From contig NZ_CP011267.1 of NCBI RefSeq assembly GCF_001006045.1, forward strand, positions 434,001-498,000: 64,000 nucleotides of DNA, read 5' to 3'. The stretch is from Geoglobus ahangari (GTDB lineage: Archaea > Halobacteriota > Archaeoglobi > Archaeoglobales > Archaeoglobaceae). How positions within the stretch are numbered: position 1 is the first letter of the stretch; every line of letters starts with the position of its first letter. Made by a program: the position numbers and the translations under genes. The notes beneath the pieces are model-generated. The model saw only the letters and a list, made by a program, of their open reading frames with translations. It searched no databases and was not told the DNA's origin. Below are positions 41,747-53,784 of this stretch, piece by piece.

Positions 41747-42397
41747 TTACAACAGCTTTAAAATGTTCCACACCTGATAAACTCCAAACAACGCGGTTGG
41801 AATCAGAGCGCAGATGAAAGCTTTGCTAAACCCCACTCCCCTCGCGTGTTTTACCGCCAAACTCCAGATCGCAAGGCTCCACACCGTAACGGCAGCGTTA
41901 ATTATCAGGTTCGAATACACGAGGCTTTCTGGCAGCAGTGAAACCACCACAGCTTTCACCACGTCTGGATTCTGCTGCAGTTGAGCTAAGCTGATTTTTG
42001 GGGTTTCGGCTTTCGAAATGTAATAAGCTGACATCGAAATAGTTATCGCAGATCCAATTAGCGAAGGTAAAAATCCGTAACCAACAAACTCAAAAGTTCT
42101 TCTGAAAGAACCTTCCCCGCCGAAGAAAGCTGACAAACCGTGCATGATTGTGGCCAAAATCAACCACACTGCGAAGATCCCAATGAAAGAGCCGATTATT
42201 CCGACGTAAGCTCCGACGACGAAAAACTTGGCGAGGTCTTCGGGGAATGCCTGAGACAGCTTCGTGACAAGCAGGTACTGATATGCAGAGATCAGGATTG
42301 CTAATGGAATAGCTATTGTCAGTAACGGAATCCTTATTCTTATATCTTTTTGCTTCAGTTCTTCGAAGAAAGCGTTCGGGTTCGCTACCAGTTTCAT
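41747..42397 (-). CDS. Yip1-family membrane protein, cassette 1
   Basis: This 216-residue protein has an N-terminal KLVANPNAFFEELKQKD segment typical of archaeal Yip1-family proteins and about five transmembrane helices. It is closely similar along its whole length to the protein at 50953-51600, and their aligned N-termini fix the start at 42397. It is transcribed away from a putative precursor-peptide gene 126 bp upstream. The same pairing occurs in the second cassette, so it is probably a working part of this system. A role in export or self-protection is only a guess. Confidence 0.82.
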   Translation of the reverse strand: MKLVANPNAFFEELKQKDIRIRIPLLTIAIPLAILISAYQYLLVTKLSQAFPEDLAKFFVVGAYVGIIGSFIGIFAVWLILATIMHGLSAFFGGEGSFRRTFEFVGYGFLPSLIGSAITISMSAYYISKAETPKISLAQLQQNPDVVKAVVVSLLPESLVYSNLIINAAVTVWSLAIWSLAVKHARGVGFSKAFICALIPTALFGVYQVWNILKLL

Positions 42398-42461
42398 GTC
42401 TCCCGATTTCAACTACATCTAATAAATTTTACTTTTTTGTCAAGAAAAAAAAATATGAAGA

Positions 42462-42517
42462 GAAAAAGTTATATAGAAGAATGAGTGAGAAATAAATAGG
42501 GTTGAGTTGAGGAGGTG
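42462..42517 (+). promoter_or_regulatory. Promoter and ribosome-binding site of precursor-peptide gene 1
   Basis: The sequence GAAAAAGTTATATA (42462-42475) is a BRE-TATA type element. A strong GGAGGTG ribosome-binding site lies at 42511-42517, six bases before the ATG. The second cassette has an almost identical GAAAAAATTATATA element and GGAGGTGAT site. No palindromic operators like those of cassette 2 were found here. Confidence 0.65.
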
Positions 42518-42523
42518 GATAGA

Positions 42524-42787
42524 ATGTATGCTGTGAAGAACTGGAATGAGGAAGTAATAAAATGGATGGCTGTGGGGATGGTGTTGGCGATGGTGGGGAT
42601 GGCTGTGATGCCGGCTGTGAGTATTGCTGAATCCAATGCCAGCTGGTACTTAAGTGAAGTTGGTCTTTTGTACGGAGTGGCCAAACAAGATTGGGTCAGT
42701 GTTGGCTTGAGCGCAGCAGGAATGGCTCTAGCTCTAGCAGGCTTGGCTACAGCTACAGGAGGAGTTGGTGTAGCAATTGCCCTCTAA
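42524..42787 (+). CDS. Putative bacteriocin-like precursor peptide, cassette 1
   Basis: The 87-residue peptide has an N-terminal block of 30 residues (MYAVKNWNEEVIKW then a hydrophobic stretch ending in VMP). That block matches the peptide of cassette 2 at 23 of 30 positions. The rest is unlike its counterpart and is rich in Ala, Gly, Val and Leu, ending in TATGGVGVAIAL. A constant leader with a variable hydrophobic core, next to a SpoIIM/DUF95 membrane protein, recalls circular bacteriocin precursors such as AS-48. A pilin-like or holin-like small membrane protein is an alternative. No cleavage site can be assigned with certainty. Confidence 0.65.
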   Translation: MYAVKNWNEEVIKWMAVGMVLAMVGMAVMPAVSIAESNASWYLSEVGLLYGVAKQDWVSVGLSAAGMALALAGLATATGGVGVAIAL

Positions 42788-42826
42788 CTTCGTAATGAAT
42801 ATAGTATTTTTATTTTGGTGATGTTT

Positions 42827-43144
42827 ATGGAATCGCACAATGTACCTCCAACGAAGCAAAACATCCGGGGGGAAAATATAGTGTATATCGTAATCCTGCT
42901 GACTGTGCACTGGACATTGTTTTTCATTTTAACGAATCTTGGTTACATCGACTACAATTGGAGTCGATGGGTCATGTATCCTGCAGTAATCATGGTTCCT
43001 CTCTTGTCTTTATTGTATTCTATTGGCACCAAAAAAAGATTCGTAGCAGAGATACCAAAAAACAAAGAAAAAAAGTACGCTCTCTCAGTGATATTAACAA
43101 TAACAATATCAGCGATGCTGTCTATAGTATCTCTTTTGCTATAG
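42827..43144 (+). CDS. Small three-helix membrane protein, cassette 1
   Basis: This protein of about 105 residues has three predicted transmembrane segments and a basic loop (GTKKRFVAEIPKNKEKKYA). A GGTGAT site four bases upstream supports the ATG at 42827. Its position and topology, though not clearly its sequence, match the 89-residue protein of cassette 2. In circular bacteriocin clusters a small basic membrane protein of this kind often confers immunity; that is the inference here. Confidence 0.65.
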   Translation: MESHNVPPTKQNIRGENIVYIVILLTVHWTLFFILTNLGYIDYNWSRWVMYPAVIMVPLLSLLYSIGTKKRFVAEIPKNKEKKYALSVILTITISAMLSIVSLLL

Positions 43145-43162
43145 GCTTTTTAGGGGGTTCTG

Positions 43163-43726
43163 ATGAAAAATAAGCTGGTTTTTACCTCAGCGGCAATATA
43201 TCTGTTCCTATTTATTTTTGGCTTTACTATTACCAATTTTACATCTACTGAAATCAAACCAAAAAATATCTTAGGGGCACCTTTAAGCAATTTACAGCCA
43301 CCAGAATTTTTATCAATCTTAAATTCTAACCTATTGGTGTGGATATATTTGCATCTAGGCATAGTAACCTTTGGGTCCTCCACGCTGATAAACCTAAGTT
43401 ACAATGGATTTACTTTTGGATCAATTATAAGCAAATCTTTGCAGATAGGATTAAGAACAAAAGAGATATTATTGTTAACCCTCCCCCACGGCATCTTCGA
43501 AATTCCCGCAATAATCATAGCCGGAGCAGCTGGCTTCAAAATCCCCTACGAAATCACAAGGTACTTAGCTGGCAAGAAAGAGCAAATACTTACGAAAGAA
43601 GACATCAAAGAATATCTAACGCTTGCATTAATTTCAATCGTCTTGATCGTAATAGCGGCATGGATAGAGGCGAACGTAACACTGAAAATAGCCAAAACAA
43701 TGTTAAATTCGACAAAAAGTATTTGA
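43163..43726 (+). CDS. SpoIIM/DUF95-family membrane protein, cassette 1
   Basis: The 187-residue protein has about five transmembrane helices and the family core LPHGIFEIPAIIIAGAAGFK. Its C-terminal half is nearly the same as that of the protein at 53260-53784, whereas the N-terminal half differs strongly. DUF95 proteins are regular members of circular bacteriocin gene clusters in Firmicutes, where they are needed for maturation or export. It follows the small membrane protein by 18 bp in the same direction. Confidence 0.82.
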   Translation: MKNKLVFTSAAIYLFLFIFGFTITNFTSTEIKPKNILGAPLSNLQPPEFLSILNSNLLVWIYLHLGIVTFGSSTLINLSYNGFTFGSIISKSLQIGLRTKEILLLTLPHGIFEIPAIIIAGAAGFKIPYEITRYLAGKKEQILTKEDIKEYLTLALISIVLIVIAAWIEANVTLKIAKTMLNSTKSI

Positions 43727-50952: not shown

Positions 50953-51600
50953 TCAGAGCAGCTTCAAAATACTCCAGACCTGATATGCTCCGAAAATCGC
51001 AGTCGGGATCAGAGCACATAAAAAAGCTTCTCTCAACCCAACATCCCTTGCATGCCTTACGGCAAAACTCCAGATCGTCAACGACCATAGCGTGACCGCG
51101 AAGTTTACCACAAGGTTCGAGTAAATAGCCTCTTTTGGAATTAAGGAAAGTGCCACCGTTTTCATCACGTCTGGATTTTGTTGCAGAGTAATCAAGCCGA
51201 TTTCAGGCACTTCTGCATTTGCAATGTAGTAAGCTACCATGGGAACCGTTATTGCTGAACCGATTAGTGAGGGAAAGAACCCGTAACCGACGAACTCGAA
51301 GGTTCTTCTGAAAATGCCCCTACCACCGAAGAAGGTAGACAGTCCGTGCATGATTACAGCCAATATCAGCCAGACTGCAAAAATTCCAATAAAGCTGCCT
51401 ACCATTCCGATGTAAGCTCCGATGACGAAGAACTTATTCAGCTCTTCGGGGAGAGCCTGAGATACTTTCGTTGCGAGTGTGTATTGATATGCTGTCAAGA
51501 GTGTCGCCAAAGACGTTAATATTACCACTGGGTACCTCAACCTCACGTCTTTGTATTTCAGTTCCTCGAAAAATCTGTTCGGATCTGTAATTAACTTCAT
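50953..51600 (-). CDS. Yip1-family membrane protein, cassette 2
   Basis: The 215-residue protein has about five transmembrane helices. It is a close paralogue of the cassette 1 protein: KLITDPNRFFEEL versus KLVANPNAFFEEL at the start, and a shared GAYQVW-NILKLL-type end. It is divergent from the regulator gene, and the palindrome pair at 51649-51684 lies in the shared promoter region. A TATA element (AAAATTTAAATACC, reverse direction) lies about 25 bp upstream of the start. Confidence 0.82.
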   Translation of the reverse strand: MKLITDPNRFFEELKYKDVRLRYPVVILTSLATLLTAYQYTLATKVSQALPEELNKFFVIGAYIGMVGSFIGIFAVWLILAVIMHGLSTFFGGRGIFRRTFEFVGYGFFPSLIGSAITVPMVAYYIANAEVPEIGLITLQQNPDVMKTVALSLIPKEAIYSNLVVNFAVTLWSLTIWSFAVRHARDVGLREAFLCALIPTAIFGAYQVWSILKLL

Positions 51601-51648
51601 ACGAAAAGAGCCATAAAGTCGGTATTTAAATTTTCTATTTTTAAAAAA

Positions 51649-51684
51649 GTCTAAAATTTTTGGACTAATCCAACATCTTTGGAC
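51649..51684. promoter_or_regulatory. Tandem palindromic operator pair before the cassette 2 regulator
   Basis: Two palindromes lie 19 bp apart, start to start: GTCTAA-N5-TTGGAC (51649-51665) and ATCCAA-N5-TTGGAC (51668-51684). A TATA-like AATAAAATATAA follows within a few bases. The same pattern, with the same 19-bp spacing, occurs before the peptide gene at 52510-52545. This strongly suggests binding sites of one dimeric regulator, most simply the FilR1-type protein encoded here. Confidence 0.7.
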
Positions 51685-51725
51685 AACAATAAAATATAAA
51701 TTCTGCCGACAGTTTTTACCGAGAG

Positions 51726-52488
51726 ATGATGTATTCAGAGGTCTTTAGAGTTCTCGATTTCGCATCAAATGACAGGGTTTTGGAGATTCTCGAAGCAATT
51801 GAGAGGGAAGAAATCTCGGACCTGAAAAAATGCTACCCGAAATCGACTCTGCATTATTCAATTCAGAAGCTAAAAAGAGCAAATCTAATTGAAAGAAGAG
51901 CAAATAAGTACGAACTCACCCAATTAGGCATAACATACCTGAAAATGATTAGAAAATTTCACAGAAGCCTCGACAAATTACACCATCTTCTGAGCAAATT
52001 TCCCGACCACAGAATAGAAATCCCGGAGGATTTCGTTCTCAGGTTAGACGAACTTGGTGAATTCGAGGTTGTAGAGTCGCAAAGTACGGATGTTTTGAGG
52101 CCCCACAAAATTGTCATGGGCCAGATCCTGCGCTCGAAGGAGGTCAGGGGAATAGTCTCCATATTTTATCCAGACTATCCAACTGTCTTCAAAGAGGTCA
52201 TAAAGAAGGTCAACATTCTTGAGATCGTCGTAACGGAGGATGTGTGGGGGCTTGTAGAAGCATATACTCACATCGAAAAAATATTCCGGTAAATTTCGCG
52301 TGTATATGGCTGACAAACACCCCCATATAGCTTTCACAGTCACAGACCATTTCTTTTCAGCTGGATTTTATCGAAAATCGGGAGACTACGATTTTTGGAG
52401 GTTGTTGATCTCAAAGGACAAATCCGCGATCAGATTCGGGAGGGACCTGTTCGAGTACTACAAGAGTATATCTGAGAAGGTCTTTTAA
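51726..52488 (+). pseudogene. HTH-FilR1 (DUF1724) regulator split by a frameshift
   Basis: The first frame (51726-52292) gives a 188-residue protein with a winged helix (STLHYSIQKLKRANLIERR) and most of a FilR1 domain (VLRPHKIVMGQILRSKEVRG, FYPDYPTVFKEV). It then stops. The missing end of the domain (HIAFTVTDHFFSAGFYRKSGDYDFW and FGRDLFEYYKS) follows in another frame up to 52488. The break lies at a run of six A (52276-52281). It could be a true mutation, a sequencing error or programmed slippage. It is a likely regulator of the adjacent peptide cassette. Confidence 0.8.
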
Positions 52489-52509
52489 CGGTTCAATATT
52501 TCTGGTCTT

Positions 52510-52545
52510 GTCCAAAATCATTGGAAAAATCCAAATCAATTGAAT
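52510..52545. promoter_or_regulatory. Tandem palindromic operator pair before peptide gene 2
   Basis: GTCCAA-N5-TTGGAA (52510-52526) and ATCCAA-N5-TTGAAT (52529-52545) are again 19 bp apart, start to start. They end five bases before the BRE-TATA element. The arrangement matches the pair before the regulator gene. Being directly upstream of the TATA box, they could serve repression or activation. Confidence 0.7.
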
Positions 52546-52549
52546 AAAA

Positions 52550-52610
52550 GAAAAAATTATATAATAGAAGACTAAAGTATAAGTAGGACTTTAGGAGTTA
52601 AGGAGGTGAT
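52550..52610 (+). promoter_or_regulatory. Promoter and ribosome-binding site of precursor-peptide gene 2
   Basis: GAAAAAATTATATA (52550-52563) is a BRE-TATA type element, and GGAGGTGAT (52602-52610) is a strong ribosome-binding site three bases before the ATG. Both elements are shared with cassette 1, where the corresponding TATA box differs by a single base. Confidence 0.65.
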
Positions 52611-52613
52611 GGG

Positions 52614-52940
52614 ATGCATGCGGTGAAGAACGGGAATGAGGAAGTAATAAAGTGGCTGGCTGTGGGGATGGTTCTGGCAATGATGGGATTTGCGATGGTG
52701 CCGATGACACTTTCGGAATACTACTTGGTCTCCAAATACGCGTTATCAAATAATCCAGACACAAACATCAGAGATGACGGAGTTGCGTCAGCGACAGTAG
52801 GTTCTGCACTTTTTGGCGTGGGAGTATATGTGCTTGGCACAGAAGTGGCTAAGACAAGTACACTAATTTACCTTGCTGGTGCAGGTGCGGCCACAGCAGG
52901 GGCAGCCTTTATAGCGGTAGGTGTGGGACTACTTGCTTAG
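52614..52940 (+). CDS. Putative bacteriocin-like precursor peptide, cassette 2
   Basis: The 108-residue peptide starts with MHAVKNGNEEVIKW and a hydrophobic stretch ending in MVP, matching the cassette 1 leader at 23 of 30 residues. The following 78 residues are different from cassette 1. They include a polar part (SNNPDTNIRDDG) and end in an Ala/Gly/Val-rich hydrophobic region (AGAGAATAGAAFIAVGVGLL). The strong promoter, paired operators and neighbouring SpoIIM/DUF95 gene support a secreted, processed peptide. Circularisation is a hypothesis from gene context only. Confidence 0.65.
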   Translation: MHAVKNGNEEVIKWLAVGMVLAMMGFAMVPMTLSEYYLVSKYALSNNPDTNIRDDGVASATVGSALFGVGVYVLGTEVAKTSTLIYLAGAGAATAGAAFIAVGVGLLA

Positions 52941-52993: not shown

Positions 52994-53263
52994 ATGAAAC
53001 AAAAAATTATGCTCAGACTAACAATCTCAGGAATACTTGCCACTATTTATGCGCTCATTGCAAAAATTACGGGGCACGGAATGCTCGATGCGTTTGCAAG
53101 TGGTACGGCTGCATTTATCGCTTGTTACGTAATGCTCATGCCAAAGCCAAGGAAAGAGAGTGATAGCCAGTACAAGATGGGTACGTTATTTTCTAAACAA
53201 AAAATTATTGAAATTATCCTGTTCATTGGACTGACATCTATGCTACTGGGGCTGATAGTTTGA
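52994..53263 (+). CDS. Small three-helix membrane protein, cassette 2
   Basis: The 89-residue protein has about three transmembrane segments (residues 8-25, 32-50 and 70-88) separated by a basic loop (MPKPRKESDSQYK). It sits in the same place as the 105-residue protein of cassette 1. Its last bases overlap the SpoIIM start (TTGA). An immunity or export-helper role is inferred from context. Confidence 0.65.
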   Translation: MKQKIMLRLTISGILATIYALIAKITGHGMLDAFASGTAAFIACYVMLMPKPRKESDSQYKMGTLFSKQKIIEIILFIGLTSMLLGLIV

Positions 53264-53784
53264 TAAACAGAATGTTGGTGTTAACTTCTATAGTATTTTT
53301 TGCGAGTGGTGTGATTATTGGGTCTTGCAATTTATTTGAATTTGAAAATAAAATAGAACCTGTACAAGACTTCAACATAAATAATTTTAAATTAAGTTTT
53401 TCTAATATTCTGAGAAATAACCTACATGTTTTGCTATTACTTATTGGAGGGTCATTTTTCGCAGGAGTTCCGACATTTTTCGGATTGCTGATCAATGGCA
53501 TACCCTTAGGTATAATCATACGTCTCGGTAGGGTGGCACTTTTTCTAACCCTCCCCCACAGCATTCTCGAAATTCCCGCAATAATCACGGCGGGAGCAGC
53601 AGGATTCAAAATTCCTTACGAGATAATCAGATACTTGGTTGGCAGAAAGGAGCAAGTTCTAACAAGAGAAGATGTAAAGGAATACCTGACCTTAGCTTTA
53701 ATTTCAGTAGTTTTAATCGTAATTGCAGCGTGGATAGAAGCGAACGTAACGCTAAAAATAGCTGAGCACTTTTTAAGCAAATAA
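53260..53784 (+). CDS. SpoIIM/DUF95-family membrane protein, cassette 2
   Basis: The 174-residue membrane protein has the family core LPHSILEIPAIITAGAAGFK. The TTG at 53260 was taken as start because (L)INRMLVLTS aligns with MKNKLVFTS of the cassette 1 protein; the ATG at 53272 is the alternative. From the core to the C-terminus the two paralogues are almost the same, but the N-terminal halves have diverged. It is coupled to the upstream small membrane protein by a 4-bp overlap. Confidence 0.82.
   Translation: MINRMLVLTSIVFFASGVIIGSCNLFEFENKIEPVQDFNINNFKLSFSNILRNNLHVLLLLIGGSFFAGVPTFFGLLINGIPLGIIIRLGRVALFLTLPHSILEIPAIITAGAAGFKIPYEIIRYLVGRKEQVLTREDVKEYLTLALISVVLIVIAAWIEANVTLKIAEHFLSK

Follow-up and report, generated by a model that had tools for sequence, protein, structure and literature searches.

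The gene neighbourhood and its frameshifted regulator

We analysed a 64,000-nucleotide stretch of DNA from Geoglobus ahangari (hereafter the window), which corresponds to positions 434001-498000 of a genome made up of a single 1,770,093-bp contig. Here a gene for a FilR1-type winged-helix regulator, split between two frames, lies between a divergently oriented gene for a Yip1-domain membrane protein and an operon that encodes a leader-bearing small hydrophobic peptide and two membrane proteins, one DUF3899-like and one of the SpoIIM (DUF95) family; a paralogous operon occupies another part of the window (table 1). FilR1_middle (PF08350, of which we take DUF1724 to be the old name) is recognized in both regulator halves, with 31.7 and 46.7 bits against a curated cut-off of 27, and in intact orthologues with 80.4 and 87.6 bits. 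An N-terminal winged helix-turn-helix is indicated by weak HMM matches and by the predicted model of the orthologue in the related genome G026 (mean pLDDT 70), in which the winged helix is followed by a second half, the closest solved folds being TrmBL2 and PLD-like domains; a profile sequence search of PDB chains with the regulator gave no match at E 0.01. The Pfam scan found no receiver domain in the window regulator or in the intact orthologues; the protein, though a relative of FilR1, is thus no two-component response regulator.

The regulator frame is broken near an A-run at ~52280 and is intact in G026, G024, G030 and G023; in G019, also of the Archaeoglobales, the regulator is likewise split. 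Against G026, dN/dS is 0.17 and 0.21 (the latter for the C-terminal part), placing both parts under purifying selection, so that the break should be recent, bypassed or an error. The published chromosome of Geoglobus ahangari 234T rests on Illumina reads of ~2,000-fold depth, and a second assembly served to check it (PMC4600277). The regulatory circuit described below may have been broken lately in this strain, unless the frame is bypassed or a base is wrong.

The peptide belongs to a family whose alignment (17 members) displays a conserved leader of ~30 residues and a hydrophobic, hypervariable remainder. Several copies per genome are found in Archaeoglobales, usually followed by SpoIIM, which adjoins most of the relatives, and often accompanied by a divergent Yip1 gene. 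The window peptide matched no known family above cut-off, circular bacteriocin families included, and the only circ_ocin_uber hint falls on the neighbouring 89-aa protein, at 15.3 bits with a cut-off of 30.7. No relative of the peptide appeared in the viral contigs scanned, its structure was predicted with low confidence (pLDDT 55), and our literature search yielded nothing on circular bacteriocins from Archaeoglobales. Circular bacteriocin clusters typically include a SpoIIM/DUF95 protein, and the window operon contains one. The Yip1 gene recalls another known system: in Bacillus, the Yip1-containing YknW is part of the YknWXYZ transporter that protects the cell from SDP, linking a Yip1-type membrane protein to self-protection from a peptide (PMC4887032). 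In contrast to both systems, no adjoining ABC transporter genes were noted in the window, and the peptide is unrelated to theirs by sequence. Given that the peptide matches no known bacteriocin family, the bacteriocin label is one of analogy: the operon resembles a bacteriocin system that includes self-protection.

Table 1. Features of the window discussed in the text (positions counted from the first base of the window)
Feature	Position	Strand	Sequence or evidence
Paralogous operon (Yip1, peptide, SpoIIM)	41747..43726	Yip1 -; peptide +; SpoIIM +	Without palindromes
Yip1-domain membrane protein, divergent from regulator	50953..51600	-	Pfam Yip1 1.3e-26; weak YknW family match
TATA-like box, divergent Yip1 gene	51623..51630	-	TTTAAATA, by eye
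Palindrome 1, Yip1/regulator promoter	51649..51665		GTCTAAAATTTTTGGAC, 1 core mismatch
Palindrome 2, Yip1/regulator promoter	51668..51684		ATCCAACATCTTTGGAC, 0 core mismatches; 19 bp from palindrome 1
TATA-like box, regulator promoter	51692..51700	+	AAATATAAA, by eye
FilR1-type winged-helix regulator, N-terminal part, 188 aa	51726..52292	+	Pfam FilR1_middle 1.8e-7, HVO_A0261_N 1.1e-4
Same regulator, C-terminal part, 62 aa, other frame	52300..52488	+	FilR1_middle 4e-12
Palindrome 0, peptide promoter	52491..52507		GTTCAATATTTCTGGTC, degenerate, in 19-bp register
Palindrome 1, peptide promoter	52510..52526		GTCCAAAATCATTGGAA, 0 core mismatches
Palindrome 2, peptide promoter	52529..52545		ATCCAAATCAATTGAAT, 1 core mismatch
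TATA-like box, peptide promoter	52557..52564	+	TTATATAA, by eye
Leader-bearing small hydrophobic peptide, bacteriocin-like	52614..52940	+	17-member family alignment
Small membrane protein, DUF3899-like, peptide operon	52994..53263	+	Slightly below curated cut-off
SpoIIM (DUF95) membrane protein, peptide operon	53260..53784	+	Pfam SpoIIM 3.3e-25

Palindromic arrays at two promoters

An earlier note on this DNA had described four palindromes, in two pairs, before the regulator and the peptide gene. All four are present where it placed them, but a fifth, weaker copy at the peptide promoter (52491-52507) had been overlooked. The 19-bp step that it gave is exact in both pairs, and the sites do stop, as it had said, shortly upstream of TATA-like boxes; these, assigned by eye, follow after 7 bp at the regulator and after 11 bp at the peptide gene. 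The Yip1 box, similarly assigned, lies ~18 bp from the palindromes of the shared promoter. In relatives, the regulator box is kept as ATATAAATTCTG (G026, G030 and G023) or TATAAATTCTG (G024).

Genome-wide counts were obtained by pattern searches, with the reversed pattern as control. The exact core TCCAA-N5-TTGGA occurs twice in 1.77 Mb, once in each window array. At one mismatch, single cores are frequent (51 in the genome, 47 in the reversed control), as a chance likeness within AT-rich gaps would have it; with single cores this common, it is the exact cores and the 19-bp tandem that are special. The 34-bp tandem, allowing up to three mismatches, has three genome matches, only at these two promoters, against 0 for the reversed pattern, and the degenerate copy of the peptide promoter belongs to one of the listed pairs (contig coordinates 486492-486525). 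When the two 125-bp gaps were dinucleotide-shuffled 20,000 times, a 19-bp pair arose in 0 and 1 trials. Finally, a weight matrix built with sites of other genomes only and then scored on the 64-kb window gave ranks 1-3 to single sites of these arrays (51649-51665 first, 52510-52526 second and 51668-51684 third) and rank 6 to the degenerate copy; among tandems, those of the window likewise took ranks 1-3. The earlier note had judged the geometry too regular for chance, and the shuffles, the uniqueness of the tandem in the genome and the conservation of the arrays bear this out; the genome-wide count that it proposed found the tandem confined to two promoters rather than common in AT-rich gaps. 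On the same three grounds the chance reading is already refuted, and we leave it a vanishingly small probability.

Sequences of this kind might act other than as protein-binding sites. Palindromes are able to form short hairpins, as RNA terminators or attenuators do, and one surveyed genome (G254) contains a pure minisatellite whose 19-bp unit is similar in sequence, which would suit mobile or minisatellite repeats. However, the window sites lie upstream of TATA boxes, including that of a divergent promoter; their strict 19-bp period holds over unrelated promoters, and the two copies at 51649-51684 are inexact repeats of each other. Across genera it is the palindrome letters TCCAA/TTGGA that are conserved, whereas the spacer bases vary, and we regard hairpins or repeats as very improbable.

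No palindromes were found at the Yip1-peptide promoter of the paralogous operon (41747-43726), whose peptide shares its leader with that of the operon beside the regulator (69% over 35 residues). Judged from its promoter, this second operon of the window is outside the control proposed here. Its promoter region (42398-42523) displays another conserved block, ATCTAATAAATTTTACTTTTTTG...AAAAAAAA.ATGAA, common to peptide promoters of G026, G027 and G030; the block represents a putative second promoter class of peptide operons.

Arrays in Archaeoglobales and methanogens

Intact regulator orthologues are found in G026 (82% identical), G030 (53%), G024 (51%) and G023 (48%), with a more distant one in G032. 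Palindromes at 19-bp steps lie upstream of the regulator in G024 and G023 (three each), G030 (two) and G032 (four). The window's divergent arrangement of regulator and Yip1 gene recurs in G024, G023 and G032. Although G026 has an intact regulator, the palindromes of that gene have decayed, as has the adjoining peptide gene; two other peptide operons of that genome retain three and four palindrome copies, the three copies being those of an operon far from the regulator. In G023, a peptide operon with four copies lies 1.45 Mb from the regulator. A tandem at up to five mismatches was found, among the 24 peptide promoters scanned, only in regulator-bearing genomes. Within the loci of the regulator clade, 18 pairs at up to four mismatches have spacing 19, compared with 0-1 for each of the spacings 15-18 and 20-24; the loci of other FilR1 homologues gave no such pairs. 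The spacing-19 matches of the control set are the window sites themselves, which its loci L010-L012 overlap. A second 19-bp array of G032 (L076:568-620) lies away from the regulator.

In a survey of 393 genomes of the phylum, the tandem at up to two mismatches occurs in 11 and the regulator clade in 14, and the two are found together in 6, with 0.4 expected (P 2.6e-7), a co-occurrence that is partly circular because regulator-adjacent sites count. Five genomes have the tandem without the regulator clade: in two it is upstream of a FilR1-type gene, in two inside an open reading frame, and in one it is a minisatellite. The blind search placed an array directly upstream of another FilR1-type gene in the distant methanogens G320 (E 5.7e-30) and G354. 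The matches in G078 and G266 were set aside, as they fall inside an open reading frame resembling thiD. In G254, a 19-bp repeat (TCCAAATAGTTTGAATCAA-like) is present six times upstream of a ribosomal protein L21e-like gene (L144:1501-1610) and is probably a minisatellite.

The nearest regulator homologues outside the class (G141, G215, G247 and G271) have a UbiA-like neighbour in place of Yip1 and the peptide. In three of them (G215, G247 and G271), 19-bp arrays of degenerate TCCAA palindromes lie upstream of UbiA, and in G215 also upstream of the regulator; G019 has a palindrome pair upstream of a UbiA-like gene. These patterns bear on whether the arrays belong to a different transcription factor, such as another winged-helix protein or an Lrp, that controls the peptide operon and the FilR1-type gene alike. 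These genomes contain several paralogues of the FilR1 and ArsR types, and the operators are well kept in G. ahangari despite the frameshifted regulator, as might be expected if another protein used them. Yet the survey of 393 genomes finds arrays and regulator clade together more often than expected, regulator and arrays remain together in methanogens where the neighbours change to UbiA, and the blind match falls upstream of a distant FilR1-type gene, so that we give such a factor an outside chance. The earlier note had suggested that one regulator controls itself, Yip1 and the peptide operon. The arrays beside orthologues and distant peptide operons, together with the co-occurrence, support this proposal at the level of sequence, and for Yip1 we infer control only from the divergent promoter that it shares with the regulator.

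Sister FilR1 genes in six genomes of another genus display a different tandem, TTAACC-N5-GGTTAA at 20 bp (single-locus P 0 to 0.1). The geometry thus seems to be shared and the letters subfamily-specific. Likewise, most other FilR1 homologues tested have no TCCAA array, which argues for a subfamily-specific code. The TTAACC-type arrays are located at L051, L054-L057 and L066, upstream of the FilR1-type gene.

Proposed mode of action and its precedents

The palindromes are real, non-random and conserved, and are probably operators of the FilR1-type regulator. Among the closest known systems is FilR1 itself, from Methanosaeta harundinacea, which has the PF08350 middle domain in common with the window regulator and binds its own promoter, as seen by EMSA and ChIP, as well as target promoters; FilR1 differs in possessing a partner kinase and a receiver domain, the latter not found in the window protein by the Pfam scan, and the words motif and palindrome are absent from the paper that describes it (PMC3991700). 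The same domain pair, HTH plus DUF1724, occurs in MsrC and MsrX of Methanosarcina acetivorans, but their targets differ, and operators are not described in that work (PMC11784639). In the TrmB family (TrmBL1, Tgr and TrmBL2), a winged helix is combined with a PLD-like second half, as the window regulator is modelled to have, and palindromic sites lie upstream of BRE/TATA at activated promoters, as do the window arrays, though with different recognition sequences (PMC4158304). Tar (TK0271) of Thermococcus kodakarensis is likewise an archaeal activator with a palindrome upstream of BRE/TATA; it differs in its site (TGGACA-N8-TGTCCA) and its amino-acid biosynthesis targets, and the available part of the source reports no 19-bp array (PMC6737238). 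HdrR, a wHTH activator from a methanogen, also has a palindromic site, but was left out of the comparison because the available part of its source names no family for it (PMC11218639). In the window, a conserved palindrome lies upstream of BRE/TATA at both the regulator and the target promoters, the position that marks activated promoters for TrmB-type regulators and Tar (PMC4158304, PMC6737238).

In the mechanism that we propose, the regulator, in which a winged helix is joined to a sensor half of TrmB/PLD type, would bind each (R)TCCAA-N5-TTGGA(Y) site as a dimer. Two to four dimers would occupy adjacent sites, one every 19 bp, immediately upstream of BRE/TATA, with neighbours possibly binding cooperatively; as the step is ~1.8 helical turns, successive dimers would wind round the DNA. 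Bound dimers would recruit TBP/TFB to the promoters of the peptide-DUF3899-SpoIIM operon, the regulator gene and the divergent Yip1 gene and thereby control all three, leading to activation and autoregulation, and Yip1 may provide self-protection. The same operators might instead serve a repressor that covers the BRE region, in which case the operon would be constitutively expressed in this strain because of the frameshift. Gaps of 7-11 bp to the TATA box might hinder TFB at BRE, and autoregulated repressors are common. But the sites lie upstream of both the TATA box and the start and overlap neither; in TrmB-type regulators and Tar such an upstream position is associated with activation, repressor sites being downstream (PMC4158304, PMC6737238), and FilR1 is reported to up-regulate (PMC3991700). 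With the arrays upstream of BRE/TATA, recruitment of TBP/TFB is the most likely outcome and repression less so, a possibility that we consider rather unlikely. The precedents of FilR1, the TrmB-type regulators and Tar, together with the 7- and 11-bp gaps, favour dimers in a row recruiting TBP/TFB, and the regulator is probably an activator, a role argued from position only. Taken as a whole, it is highly probable that the arrays are the FilR1-type regulator's operators at its own, the Yip1 and the peptide promoters, with activation and autoregulation likely.

Methanogens and Archaeoglobales possess numerous FilR1/DUF1724 regulators, yet the searchable literature yielded no operator defined for this group. 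With a motif of such strict geometry, FilR1-type regulons could be predicted from sequence and put to a direct test by footprinting; it would also provide a first regulatory handle on an uncharacterised, bacteriocin-like peptide system of hyperthermophilic archaea. A broader generalization has, in our estimate, even chances: that the archaeal FilR1-type family follows a common code of 17-bp 6-N5-6 palindromes at 19-20-bp steps upstream of BRE/TATA, with half-sites particular to each subfamily (TCCAA; TTAACC), and that this code here governs an undescribed, bacteriocin-like Archaeoglobales peptide system of leader type and Yip1, with the regulator decaying in some strains. Further targets are hinted at by the UbiA-like genes of methanogens and by an M50 protease in G023, where a further 19-bp array (L101:5335-5368) lies between the M50/PDZ protease gene and a gene for a small secreted-looking protein. 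This locus is a candidate member of the regulon, and one may speculate that it is tied to leader processing.
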